Source: Bradyrhizobium tropiciagri
Lineage (GTDB): Bacteria > Pseudomonadota > Alphaproteobacteria > Rhizobiales > Xanthobacteraceae
Assembly: GCF_001189845.1 (NCBI RefSeq)
Contig: NZ_LFLZ01000001.1
Span: 310,001 to 374,000, forward strand
DNA length: 64,000 bases
Direction: 5' to 3'
Part shown: piece after piece, positions 45,903-49,356 of the stretch
Numbering within the stretch: position 1 is the first letter of the stretch
How the letters are laid out: every line of letters begins with the position of its first letter
Translations under genes and position numbers: made by a program
Notes under the pieces: generated by a model
The model's input: the letters and a program-made list of their open reading frames with translations, nothing else
Told to the model about the DNA's origin: nothing
The model's database searches: none

Positions 45903-47227
45903 TCAGTGCATCGTCTGTTCCGACGCTGCGATCCAGGCGATGACGGCCTCGGAGAAGCCGTCGACCCGGGTCCACGGGCCGTGTCCGACGCCGTGCTGGT
46001 AGGACGCCACGTTGACCATGTAGCCACGTCCCTTCGGGGCGGGCACCTGGTCGTGGCTCTGCTCGTCGGTTAAGACGATCAGGCGATCGCCCTTGCGGTC
46101 GATCTGCGTCACCGCCTTGCCGAGATACGTCCCGCCATGCGGCTGCGCGCCGATGATCGCATCGCGCAGCGCGAAGCCGCGGCGCGGCGGCAGCTTCACG
46201 ACCTCATTGCTGAACGTGAAGATCTCCACCTCGTCGCAGACTCGCGGGCGAGAATCGCAAGCCCGCAGGCCGCCTCCGCCCGCGTCATCTCGGATTGGGC
46301 CGAGAGCGGCGAGAACATCGATCCCGACACGTCGATCAGGAGCCGCGTGCGGCCGTCGAGCCGCGCGTAGTCCTTGACCGACTTCAGCATCGCTGCCTCG
46401 AGCTCCGGCTCGAAGTCCGGCGCATAGCGCGCCGCCGTGATGAAGCGGTAGGGCAGGATGCGGTCGGTCCGCATCGCGTCGATCGCCTCCGCGATGGTCC
46501 GGCGCGGCACCTCCGCCTTCTGCATCAGGCGCAGGTTGCGGAGCAGCGCCAGCCCGCCGAGCCGGTTCTCGGCGATCAGCCGCTCGAAGGTCTCACGCTT
46601 GTCCTTGCCGGACGACAGCGAAACCTCCCAGGTGTCGGGCGAGGCCAGCTCGCCGTCGACGAGCTGCTTCCACACCTTCTCCTGCGCGGTGTCCTTCGGC
46701 TTGGCGTGGACCAGGAACAGCACGTCCTTGATCCGCACCGCGCCGTCGCGATCGTACTTCGCGAGCTGGTAGGCGTCGAACTTGGTCAGCGCCCGCGCCA
46801 GGCCCTTCTTGATCTGCGCCGAGACGGGCTGACGCTTGCGCTGCTGCTGAGGGCCGAGCGCATCCGCCCAATAGATCGCAAGCAGCTCGGTCATCTCGTC
46901 CGGCCGCTGGATCACCCGCGCCAGCGTATCGGCGACGAGGGCGCGATGGGCCGGATGCCGCGCCATCTCGCGAACCACGAGCAGCGGCGCGTGCCGCAGC
47001 TTCATGGTCTCGCGCGCAGCGATGGCGAGTTCGGCCGTGCGCTCGGGCGCGACCAGCGGCACCAGCGCCTTGATGCGATCGGCGATCGCAACCCCGTCCT
47101 CGTAGAACTGGCTCTCCCACAGGAGGCAGTTCAGCAGCGCGCGCCGCAATTCCATCTCGGGCGTGAAGCGCTTGCCGCGCGCACCCTCACGGGTGAAGGC
47201 GCGCATGATCTTGTTGATCGTGGCCAT
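45903..47227 (-). pseudogene. rsr: TROVE (Ro60/Rsr) protein with vWA domain, single-base frameshift
   Basis: From the ATG at 47227 (AAAGGAGG upstream) the N-terminal 260 residues form the TROVE HEAT-repeat ring: FTREGARGKRFTPEMELRRALLNCLLWE, LLVVREMARHPAHRALVADTLARVIQRPDEMTELLAIYW. The vWA domain has the MIDAS DVSGSMFSPLSAQSEM near residue 300. It continues in another frame as EIFTFSNEVVKLPPRRGFAL and VLTDEQSHDQVP. One missing base near 46240 (AREVCDEVEIFTF when restored) separates the frames; repaired length is about 440. Rsr binds Y RNAs and misfolded RNA. Four Y-like RNAs lie directly upstream in the same direction. Confidence 0.85.
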
Positions 47228-47266
47228 GATGGCCTCCTTTCTGGGTGAGTATGGATTGGAAGGTGG

Positions 47267-47394
47267 TGCCGGGGAACTCGCGAGGCTGGACCGCCCACCG
47301 AAGGGCTTACGTGCTCTACCACTGAGCTACGAACTTTCGTTCGGGAGGATTCGAACCTCCGACACCGAAGTAACAGCGCTCTTCACCACCGGCA
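47267..47394 (-). ncRNA. yrlA: Y RNA (YrlA-like), unit 4, nearest the TROVE gene
   Basis: On the minus strand: closing stem TGCCGG/CCGGCA (47389-47394, 47267-47272), 5' element TGGTGAAGA, 3' element GTTCC. The inner pairing is GAG-GCTG with CAGC-CTC. The tRNA-like module follows: T-arm GGAGG-TTCGAAT-CCTCC (47344-47360), acceptor CGAAC-GAAA-GTTCG closed by a GNRA tetraloop (47330-47343), TA, and D-arm GCTC-AGTGGTA-GAGC (47313-47327). The order T-acceptor-D is a circular permutation of tRNA, as in YrlA RNAs. It ends 39 bases before the TROVE ATG. No anticodon arm is present, so it is not a tRNA gene. Confidence 0.82.
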
Positions 47395-47402
47395 TTGACG
47401 GA

Positions 47403-47566
47403 CCACGACCCGGGAACAGGCGATTGCTGAGACCACGGCCAGCCAAGGCCGGCCGGGTAGCGCTCTATCCGCTGAGCTACCGGTGCACATGACACCGGGC
47501 GGGATTCGAACCCGCGACCTCTCGTTTCAGAGACGATGTAACAGCGATCTTCACCACGGGGCGTGG
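47403..47566 (-). ncRNA. yrlA: Y RNA (YrlA-like), unit 3
   Basis: Closing stem: CCACG-C-CCCG pairs with CGGG-T-CGTGG (nine pairs, one mismatch). TGGTGAAGA and GTTCC elements are present. Inner helix: GATCGCTG with CAGCAATC, seven of eight pairs. tRNA-like module: a CTCT/AGAG hairpin, T-arm GCGGG-TTCGAAT-CCCGC (47499-47515), seven-pair acceptor CCGGTGT/GCACCGG joined by CATGT (47480-47498), TA, D-arm GCTC-AGCGGATA-GAGC (47462-47477). It is the most tRNA-like unit: the acceptor keeps the normal seven pairs, but its two ends are joined by a loop. Confidence 0.82.
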
Positions 47567-47570
47567 AAGG

Positions 47571-47701
47571 GGTCGGCGGGGAACAAGCGATGCTGTTGCT
47601 GCCCTTGCGGGCGAACCGCCTTTCGGCGTGCGGGCCTCGAACCCGCTCGGCGCCGTAGCGCCTTACCACGAAGTAACAGACATCTTCACCACCGCCTGAC
47701 C
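47571..47701 (-). ncRNA. yrlA: Y RNA (YrlA-like), unit 2
   Basis: Closing stem: GGTC-A-GGCGG pairs with CCGCC-GACC (nine pairs, one bulged A). TGGTGAAGA and GTTCC elements are present. Inner helix GATG-t-CTGTT with AACAG-CATC, nine pairs. T-arm GCGGG-TTCGAGG-CCCGC (47630-47646). Acceptor-like hairpin CGCC-GAAA-GGCG (47617-47628). A D-arm substitute hairpin GCCC-GCAA-GGGC follows. The D-loop sequence has diverged from tRNA, but the three-helix order is kept. Confidence 0.78.
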
Positions 47702-47729
47702 GACGCAACTGCGCCGGCCGTTGATAGGT

Positions 47730-47914
47730 ACGCTGGGGAACTGGCGATATCGGTGTCAGTGACGACAACACAGCCGCTCGCCTTGCGGACGAGAGACTGC
47801 GCCGGGCCGCACGCGGACCTTTGCCAAGCCACATCCCGGTGCGTGTGTCACAGGCGGGATTCGAACCCGCTCTTTCCGGTGGAGCGAAGTATCCGACATC
47901 TTCACCACCAGCGT
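47730..47914 (-). ncRNA. yrlA: Y RNA (YrlA-like), unit 1, most distal
   Basis: Closing stem ACGCTGG/CCAGCGT (47908-47914, 47730-47736), seven perfect pairs. TGGTGAAGA and GTTCC elements are present. Inner helix GATGTCGG with CCGATATC, eight pairs including one G-U. T-arm GCGGG-TTCGAAT-CCCGC (47854-47870). The acceptor and D parts are less regular (CTGTGACACACG, GGCTTGGCAAAGG), and an extra hairpin CTCG-t-CC-GCAA-GG-CGAG is inserted. At 185 bases it is the longest unit. Confidence 0.75.
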
Positions 47915-47987
47915 CGGTTGAGCCGCGGTGATGCGGCAAACCGTTTTGAAAAAGTTTCGTCGCGGCACAGTCGACGCGCCGCATATT

Positions 47988-48007
47988 GCGAACTCCTCGG
48001 AGTTCGC
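47988..48007. promoter_or_regulatory. Perfect 8-4-8 dyad upstream of the Y RNA array
   Basis: GCGAACTC-CTCG-GAGTTCGC on the plus strand, about 75 bases upstream (minus direction) of unit 1. There is no T-run on either side. It may be an operator or the end of an upstream transcript. I saw no convincing sigma-70 or sigma-54 promoter between it and unit 1. Confidence 0.45.
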
Positions 48008-48153
48008 TCTGCCATCGGTATCCGGCTCATCGCCTCGTTCCCTCCGGCAGGCCCCGCGCGCTTGGGCACGCGCGTCTCCGCGCGAGCCCCGGGATCCGGG
48101 TCTCCCGTTCCGGCTTGCGCCGGGCAGTTCAGGTGAGCCTTGCTGCGGACAAC

Positions 48154-48188
48154 AAAAAACCCTCCGGAGCAGCTGGCTCGGGAGGGTC
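48154..48188 (-). terminator. Rho-independent terminator
   Basis: On the minus strand: ACCCTCC, loop containing CGAGCCAGCTGCTCC, GGAGGGT, TTTTTT. It ends the candidate small RNA or the LysR transcript from 48416. Confidence 0.8.
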
Positions 48189-48285
48189 CACATTGATTGC
48201 GGACTGTCGACCTCGCGCTATGCGAGGTCGCTCCCATGAGCCGGGCACACGCTGTCGATCGGCCGCAGGCCGTTCGACAGTTGGC
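48154..48285 (-). ncRNA. Candidate small RNA upstream of the Y RNA array
   Basis: A compact structured segment read on the minus strand: stem CTGTCGA/TCGACAG with inner CGGCC-TGC-GGCCG (48252-48280), stem CGACCTCGC/GCGAGGTCG (48208-48230), a TCCGC/GTGGA pairing, then a Rho-independent terminator. No coding frame with good codon use covers it and the next minus-strand gene stops 130 bases away. I do not recognise a family. The 475-base gap 47941-48415 otherwise holds only the dyad at 47988-48007. Confidence 0.5.
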
Positions 48286-48415
48286 GGAATCTTTCAAATC
48301 CGTAGTGCATCATCTGGCTCATGTTTGATCGCGAGCGATGGTGCTCGCGAAGGTTGCGGGACATACGCCTCGTCGATGTCGATGTCAACAATCGAAATGA
48401 TAGCGACAGAAGAAT

Positions 48416-49356
48416 TCAGCGCCGCTTGTGCGTCTTCGTCTTGCTCGCCGGCTTGCTGCCGTGCGCAGCGATCCGCGTCAGCGCATCTGCGAACGCGTGT
48501 GCAGCGGGGCCGAGCGGCTCGTCGAGCCGGTGCGCGAGATAGGCCTCCATCGCAAGCGCGGCGTTGCGACCAAGTGCGCCGGTCTCGATCCGCACCAGGC
48601 GGCGTTCGTTCAAGTCGCGCGCCACTTGCCACAGCGGCAGCCGGCCCCAGCCGAGCCCGGCCAGGATCATGGCGTGCTTGGTGTCCTGATTGCTGACCCG
48701 GCAGATTTGCGGCGAGAGCACGCCGAAGTTGCGGCCTTCCGACAGCGGCGTCGGGTCCGACAGCACGATCTGCAGATGATCGGCGAGGTCGGCGACGCTC
48801 TTGCGGCCACGGCGCGCGAGCGGATGGCTTGCGGAGGCGACGGCGATGATCTGCACGGAGCAGATCGCGTCGAGCGCGAGGCGGGGGTCGCGGAAATCTT
48901 CGCCGACGGTGACGGCGAGCGCGCTGCGCCGCTCGGTGAGGGCTGCGATCGGACCGCCCATCGGTTCGACCGCGAGCCGCACGCTGACGGATGGATAGGC
49001 CGTGCGCATCTCCGTCAGCGCTGCGCCGACGGCGGCGATTGGAAACAGCGTGTCGACGACGAGTGCGAGTTCCGACTCCACCCCGTCGCCAAGGCCGTGG
49101 GCCCGCGCCCGCATCGCATCGACGCGGAGCAGGAGGTCGCGCGCATTGCCGAGCAGCGCCTTGCCTTCGGCCGTCAGCGCCGGGCGATGGCTGGAGCGGT
49201 CGAACAGCGCGAGGCGAGCTCGGCCTCGAGGTTGGCGATGGCGTGGCTGACCGCGGACTGCACCCGCGCCAGCCTGGTCGCGGCGGCGCGAAAGCTGCCG
49301 CTGTCGGCGATGGCGACGAAGACGCGGATCTGATCGAGCGTGAGGTTATCGAGCAT
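48416..49356 (-). pseudogene. LysR family regulator, single-base frameshift
   Basis: The HTH half begins MLDNLTLDQIRVFVAIADSGSFRAAATRLARVQSAVSHAIANLEAEL. After a missing base near 49212-49215 the reading continues as LALFDRSSHRPALTAEGKALL and then through the effector domain (ELALVVDTLFPIAAVGAALTEM, LILAGLGWGRLPLWQVA). Repaired length is about 313 residues. It is divergent from the MFS gene at 49456, its probable target. Confidence 0.8.

Follow-up and report, generated by a model that had tools for sequence, protein, structure and literature searches.

Permuted tRNA-like modules in a tandem array of probable Y RNAs upstream of rsr in Bradyrhizobium tropiciagri

The closest described counterparts of the RNAs considered here are the bacterial Y RNAs of the YrlA kind. 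According to a review, this RNA is modified by DusA and TruB, its basal stem tethers Rsr, and its tRNA-like domain is the PNPase-binding part of the RYPER complex (PMC8394870). The structure of a bacterial Y RNA, 6CU1, superposes on tRNAs by circular permutation, as noted in the passage of PMC11472068 that deals with it. In the relevant section of another study, YrlA fragments were not detected when a RecA-dependent nuclease cut tRNAs, and the roles suggested there are tRNA decay or competitive inhibition (PMC7790460).

The current analysis deals with a stretch of 64,000 nucleotides from Bradyrhizobium tropiciagri (assembly GCF_001189845.1, contig NZ_LFLZ01000001.1, positions 310,001 to 374,000), referred to below as the window, and with the upstream regions of rsr in 80 named relatives, kept from 104 that were found. 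Two of four tandem units located directly upstream of rsr, units 3 and 4, are very probably Y RNAs of the YrlA kind. Two features of that kind are present, the rsr neighbor and the permuted order of T-arm, closed acceptor, and D-arm.

The rsr gene and the four-unit array

In the window, rsr is encoded on the minus strand and is split between two reading frames:

46196..47227, minus strand: N-terminal part of rsr, 343 codons, with a match to TROVE (PF05731) of 60.2 bits, E 2.8e-16
45903..46229, minus strand: C-terminal part of rsr in another frame, from the list of open reading frames, with a resemblance to the terminal part of the open 441-aa relative in locus L019

Searched alone, the C-terminal part (45903..46229) had no match in Pfam. 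The frameshift lies near residue 330 and leaves 343 codons here, compared with open genes of 422 to 448 aa in all 80 relatives. Either a recent mutation or an error in the assembly may account for it; if the sequence is right, the whole Rsr protein is possibly not made in the window's genome. Over residues 1 to 329, the nearest named Rsr proteins show 98% identity; they come from Bradyrhizobium macuxiense BR 10355 and Bradyrhizobium sp. CER78. The TROVE match is patchy (12 of 60 relatives). In a DNA search at E up to 0.001, the array stretch was matched in 84 of 265 genomes of the same genus, a count that includes weak matches of ∼25 to 50 bases, probably to tRNA arms. The genes for TruB, Dus, and PNPase were all matched in the window's genome. 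With no match to RtcB there, the genome lacks an RNA repair context of the Salmonella type.

The array occupies the minus strand directly upstream of rsr, which begins at window position 47227. Every unit is opened by a 5' box, GGTGGTGAAG or CGTGGTGAAG, and closed by a GTTCCCC-like 3' box, with the following starts:

47728..47917 (approximate bounds), minus strand: unit 1, with 5' box GGTGGTGAAG at 47909 and 3' box AGTTCCCC at 47742
47570..47712 (approximate bounds), minus strand: unit 2, with 5' box at 47693 and 3' box at 47585
47403..47562, minus strand: unit 3, with 5' box CGTGGTGAAG at 47558 and 3' box TGTTCCCG at 47418, carrying a full tRNA-like module
47265..47394, minus strand: unit 4, with 5' box GGTGGTGAAG at 47390 and 3' box AGTTCCCC at 47278, carrying a full tRNA-like module

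By sequence, each unit has a basal stem with conserved boxes, presumed to be the Ro60/Rsr-binding frame. Like the boxes, the stem pairing is conserved among relatives. Pairing of the frames was counted in the 48 loci (47 relatives and the window, from the total of 81) in which a script found exactly four frames. The numbers of loci with a paired basal position, listed from the outermost position inward, were

unit 1: 45, 46, 46, 46, 47, 48
unit 2: 34, 45, 48, 46, 46, 48
unit 3: 43, 43, 46, 47, 47, 48
unit 4: 12, 44, 47, 48, 48, 47

The five inner positions of the six are thus paired in 43 to 48 of the 48 loci. The outermost position is paired in only 12 of 48 loci in unit 4 and in 34 of 48 in unit 2, which counts against the Y RNA reading. 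A full tRNA-like module was found in the third frame of 45 of these loci, in the fourth frame of 43, in the second of 20, and in the first of only 2; in the loci from outside Bradyrhizobium, the units compared are possibly not orthologous. The pairing of the frames thus persists, while the inserts vary by unit and by species. The array with one frame and different inserts can be seen as a natural experiment on the purpose of the tRNA-like domain. Units with different inserts might, as a conjecture, provide Rsr with several partners or gate states. The largest sets of modules were observed in loci L084 and L085, each of which has five tRNA-mimic modules per rsr locus; those in L085 are arranged in tandem within ∼700 bases.

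The position of the array also agrees with a role mainly as a cis-acting 5' leader of rsr, in which Rsr bound to unit 4 beside the ribosome-binding site would repress its own translation. The 3' box of unit 4 starts ∼50 bases upstream of the rsr start codon, and simple scans of positions 47200-48420 revealed neither an upstream promoter of the sigma-70 consensus nor a minus-strand terminator, although the promoter scan was limited to that consensus. The lack of a promoter site, like the frameshift in rsr and the missing RtcB match, also speaks against the Y RNA reading. Against a leader, the number and place of the modules vary among the relatives, some being located at least 1.6 kb away (e.g., in L081), and leader activity would in any case be compatible with a role in trans. 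A mainly cis-acting array is considered unlikely, and the array is read here as several Y RNAs for one Rsr. A short open reading frame, MMHYGFERFRQL..., is located at 48157-48315 on the minus strand and is followed by the stem CCCTCC...GGAGGG and a T run; this pattern was seen in 6 of the 81 upstream regions, the window included.

Fold and conservation of the permuted modules

The preliminary description had proposed that units 3 and 4 contain tRNA parts in the order T-arm, acceptor 3' strand, loop, acceptor 5' strand, D-arm, so that the acceptor end is closed and the opening is at the anticodon side. Both modules are delimited by the minimum free energy (MFE) fold, the matches to the covariance model R1 (see below), and covariation:

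47457..47520, minus strand: module of unit 3
47515-47499, minus strand: unit 3 T-arm, T-stem GCGGG/CCCGC, loop TTCGAAT
47498-47492, minus strand: unit 3 acceptor 3' strand, CCGGTGT
47491-47487, minus strand: unit 3 acceptor loop, CATGT
47486-47480, minus strand: unit 3 acceptor 5' strand, GCACCGG
47477-47462, minus strand: unit 3 D-arm, GCTC/GAGC
47308..47365, minus strand: module of unit 4
47360-47344, minus strand: unit 4 T-arm, T-stem GGAGG/CCTCC, loop TTCGAAT
47343-47339, minus strand: unit 4 acceptor 3' strand, CGAAC
47338-47335, minus strand: unit 4 acceptor loop, GAAA
47334-47330, minus strand: unit 4 acceptor 5' strand, GTTCG
47327-47313, minus strand: unit 4 D-arm, GCTC/GAGC

The seven acceptor pairs ascribed to unit 3 are all there, one of them being U-G, and the two loop sequences read as described. 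The acceptor hairpin of unit 4 has five pairs, and in both modules UA precedes the D-arm. In each module, the MFE fold consists of precisely the three expected hairpins. Compared with shuffled sequences, the folding energy of unit 3 has a z score of -1.48 (16 of 200 shuffles were equally good) and that of unit 4 has a z score of -2.34 (3 of 200). Folding energy by itself is too weak a test for both modules; the strong evidence is the comparison across relatives.

The 81 upstream regions (those of rsr in the 80 relatives and in the window) were surveyed for a T-arm followed by TAGCTCA, leaving the acceptor free. This unselected survey yielded 138 modules in 77 of the 81 regions. All five outer acceptor pairs were present in 118 of them, four in 13, and fewer in 7, so that at least four of the five pairs are found in 131 of 138 modules. 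The 45 distinct strand pairs comprise 225 cells, of which 197 were paired; in 2,000 shuffles, the number of paired cells averaged 134.9 and never exceeded 156. Chance folding of the modules was ruled out by this acceptor pairing, which the survey did not demand.

A hand-picked set of 17 seed modules (alignment A1) gave a covariation score of 0.423 versus 0.114 after shuffling, with 97.7% of the cells paired (81.2% shuffled) and 40 cells changed on both sides (11.5 shuffled). Eight pairs showed a double change, a number reached by 23 of 500 shuffles, and sliding the acceptor partners abolished the covariation signal. The D-stem is invariant in these modules and contributes no covariation evidence. 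The survey of 138 modules is the fairer test, because acceptor pairing had been a requirement for the list from which most of the seeds were taken.

The covariance model R1, built from the 17 seeds, scored unit 3 at 70.4 bits and unit 4 at 68.0 bits in the window's genome; these were the only modules above 36 bits among the 65 matches listed there, the next one having 35.6 bits. Unit 2 scored at best 16.0 bits; besides a T-arm, it contains the short closed hairpin CGCC GAAA GGCG and, in the place of the D-arm, a different hairpin. The long insert of unit 1 includes a T-arm-like hairpin (GCGGG TTCGAAT CCCGC) and lacks the D-arm module; R1 did not match it as a whole module and gave a partial T-arm match of 18.6 bits. 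At E up to 0.01, R1 had 175 matches in the rsr loci. Two of them are in the window; the other 173 (one truncated) are spread over 79 of the 80 relatives' loci.

Searches at E up to 1e-5 found R1 matches in 110 of 385 genomes of the class and in 256 of 398 genomes of the phylum, counts that are uninformative on the frequency of Y RNAs because they are swamped by matches resembling tandem tRNAs. Such matches in other genomes reach ∼58 bits, and many are 80 to 115 bases long (the few inspected include L173 and L175). They bring up the reading in which the permuted order would be a mere junction of two tandem tRNA genes or fragments, as in tRNA arrays or att-site duplications, given that any tandem tRNA pair produces the order T, acceptor, acceptor, D. 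In the window's genome itself, the third and fifth R1 matches (35.6 and 28.7 bits) contain the CCA-bearing 3' end of a tRNA and have the appearance of att-site copies.

Units 3 and 4 differ from such junctions in several respects. Their loops consist of 4 to 5 nt, an anticodon arm and a loop CCA are missing from both modules, and every module is enclosed by its own paired frame. The pairing partners were compared in alignment A2, which consists of the best 150 of the 175 R1 matches (135 distinct), with the 25 weakest excluded. Acceptor strands paired within the module in 915 of 943 cells (97%) and across neighboring modules in 226 of 412 cells (55%); of 63 neighbor pairs, pairing was better within the module in 56, tied in 6, and reversed in 1. 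A2 also contained 335 doubly changed cells versus 78.7 in shuffled alignments, the alignment having been fitted to model R1. Pairing within units and not across them led to the rejection of the tandem-junction and att-site reading for units 3 and 4, for which it is extremely improbable. Around positions 1500-1540 of loci L142 and L144, there are two copies of the 3' end of a tRNA, CCA included, without an ARAGORN call; these resemble the att-site copies of integrated elements.

These comparisons confirm that the permuted tRNA-like modules of units 3 and 4 are real and conserved. The proposed order of parts was borne out by the fold, by covariation, and by the pairing in relatives, and the closed acceptor with the opening at the anticodon side holds on the evidence of the fold, covariation, and within-unit pairing. 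Judged from its sequence, the three-hairpin insert in the frame of units 3 and 4 is a tRNA opened at the anticodon side, with its acceptor end closed.

Another reading takes unit 3 for an ordinary tRNA gene. ARAGORN placed an ordinary tRNA-Gln with the anticodon ctg at 47491-47564, the Rfam tRNA model gave 21.3 bits on the unit 3 stretch, and ARAGORN reported at least one tRNA in 31 of the 81 upstream regions; in relative L073, a tRNA of ordinary order spanning two neighboring modules, at 44.9 bits, even passes the Rfam tRNA score. However, the gathering score of the tRNA model is 29 bits, above the 21.3 bits obtained for unit 3, and the tRNA matches of the window's genome, 46 in number, all lie elsewhere. 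The tRNA-Gln reading also takes the conserved 5' box for a D-arm. At the corresponding place in close relatives, the call is His(gtg) or Gly(ccc), with none in L022, so the "anticodon" of unit 3 is not kept. A tRNA-Gln(CTG) gene was accordingly rejected as having next to no likelihood, and the ARAGORN call on unit 3 is most likely spurious. Annotators should be warned that calls of tRNA finders in such arrays are most likely false tRNAs. At least one of the ARAGORN calls, in the upstream region of L084, falls on a real-looking tRNA of 56.5 bits.

The Rfam model of YrlA (RF02553) matched unit 3 with 40.3 bits (E 4.6e-7) and unit 4 with 36.7 bits (E 4.9e-6), in both cases over model positions 24 to 84, which substantiates the likeness to the YrlA module that the preliminary description had suggested checking. 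Both scores are below the YrlA gathering score of 69 bits, presumably because the outer stem differs from that of the Rfam model. At the gathering score, YrlA had no match in the loci of 20 relatives, and Rfam as a whole reported nothing in the window. The gathering score is a curation threshold, not a biological feature, and it limits the YrlA claim to the module. With scores below gathering but with the rsr neighbor and the permuted module in place, units 3 and 4 are therefore best described as Y RNAs with a YrlA-type module and not as members of RF02553 by score.

CCA in the acceptor loops of relatives

In some relatives, the acceptor loop contains CCA at positions 2 to 4, that is, in the N73-C74-C75-A76 register of a tRNA 3' end (N-CCA). 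Among the loops that were long enough, taken from the best 150 of the 175 R1 matches, CCA in this register was found in 27 of 48 Bradyrhizobium modules (5 distinct sequences) and in 5 of 35 modules from other organisms (5 distinct). The shuffled means were 1.8 and 0.5, respectively, and none of 5,000 shuffles reached the observed number in either group, although these shuffles overstate the significance because the modules are related by descent. Other loop registers contained CCA in 0 to 2 modules per group.

Within Bradyrhizobium, N-CCA is found in the unit 3 loops of L026, L027, L033, L034, and L044. Outside the genus, it was detected in the rsr-anchored loci L069, L080, L082, and L083 and in L042, a Hyphomicrobiales metagenome-assembled genome whose unit 3 acceptor and loop are like those of Bradyrhizobium L026, so that it is not an independent case. 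N-CCA is also present in L177, where a TROVE match is located on the same contig, and in L153, L180, and L182, whose genomes had no TROVE match at E up to 0.001. Among the best 150 of the 175 matches, it was found in none of the 15 modules from Acidobacteria or the 12 from Hyphomonadaceae, as grouped by record titles.

One reading of this pattern is that alphaproteobacterial Y RNAs have retained the tRNA 3' end in their acceptor loop and that the window's loops would have lost the CCA. This idea is rather doubtful, and N-CCA is to be taken as a lead on origin, not as a result about this window. If true, it would mean that the mimic arose when a CCA-bearing tRNA end was joined to a 5' end, as could happen at the junction of two tandem tRNA genes, and an N-CCA remnant would thus show how a permuted tRNA mimic arose. 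Members with CCA might still be recognized by CCA-dependent enzymes, or their loop might be the site of a cut.

Such cutting is the core of a further alternative, in which tRNA-processing enzymes cut the acceptor loop and the functional molecule is a two-piece RNA with a free 3' end, as it is for permuted tRNA genes or the permuted alphaproteobacterial tmRNA. It draws on the fact that the loops of several relatives read N-CCA exactly at the position of the tRNA 3' end. However, the window's own loops, CATGT in unit 3 and GAAA in unit 4, have no CCA. Short loops dominate in general, with just 2 to 5 letters between the seven-column acceptor strands in 122 of the best 150 modules, which leaves little room for a leader. 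A two-piece RNA is accordingly very improbable for the window, where the acceptor is taken to be closed.

Proposed role and comparison with known systems

If the assignment to the YrlA kind holds for units 3 and 4, their mode of action can be tentatively sketched from the work on Deinococcus and Salmonella. By analogy, Rsr would bind the basal stem, TruB and a Dus enzyme could modify the tRNA-like domain, and the same domain may dock on PNPase, so that the Rsr ring would feed structured or damaged RNA to this exonuclease. The tRNA-like domain would stay uncharged, because it has no free acceptor end. Modification by enzymes such as TruB or Dus and an escape from aminoacylation had also been suggested in the preliminary description.

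The permuted tRNA mimic, the crystal structure 6CU1, and modification by TruB and DusA have already been published for YrlA. New here, unless the primary YrlA papers already mention them, would be the host, the arrangement of four units with exchanged inserts, and the N-CCA lead; a literature search combining Bradyrhizobium, Y RNA, and Rsr found no paper. These RNAs extend the tRNA-mimicking class to a well-sampled genus of plant symbionts.

YrlA of Salmonella Typhimurium (6CU1) and the window's units share the permuted arrangement of T-arm, short-loop acceptor hairpin, and D-arm, the long basal stem, and the location beside rsr. They differ in the outer stem, that of the Rfam YrlA model being unlike that of the window's units, and in the RtcB match, which is missing from the window's genome. 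Salmonella has yrlB and yrlA, according to the section of PMC7790460 on these RNAs, whereas the genome of the window has four tandem units. With the RYPER complex (Rsr-Y RNA-PNPase) of Deinococcus radiodurans, the window's genome shares the rsr and PNPase genes and a Y RNA module beside rsr. The permuted tmRNA and permuted tRNA genes of alphaproteobacteria are opened at the acceptor and carry or gain CCA. The order of tRNA parts in them is like that in the window's modules, in which, by contrast, the acceptor is a closed hairpin of 5 to 7 pairs without CCA.
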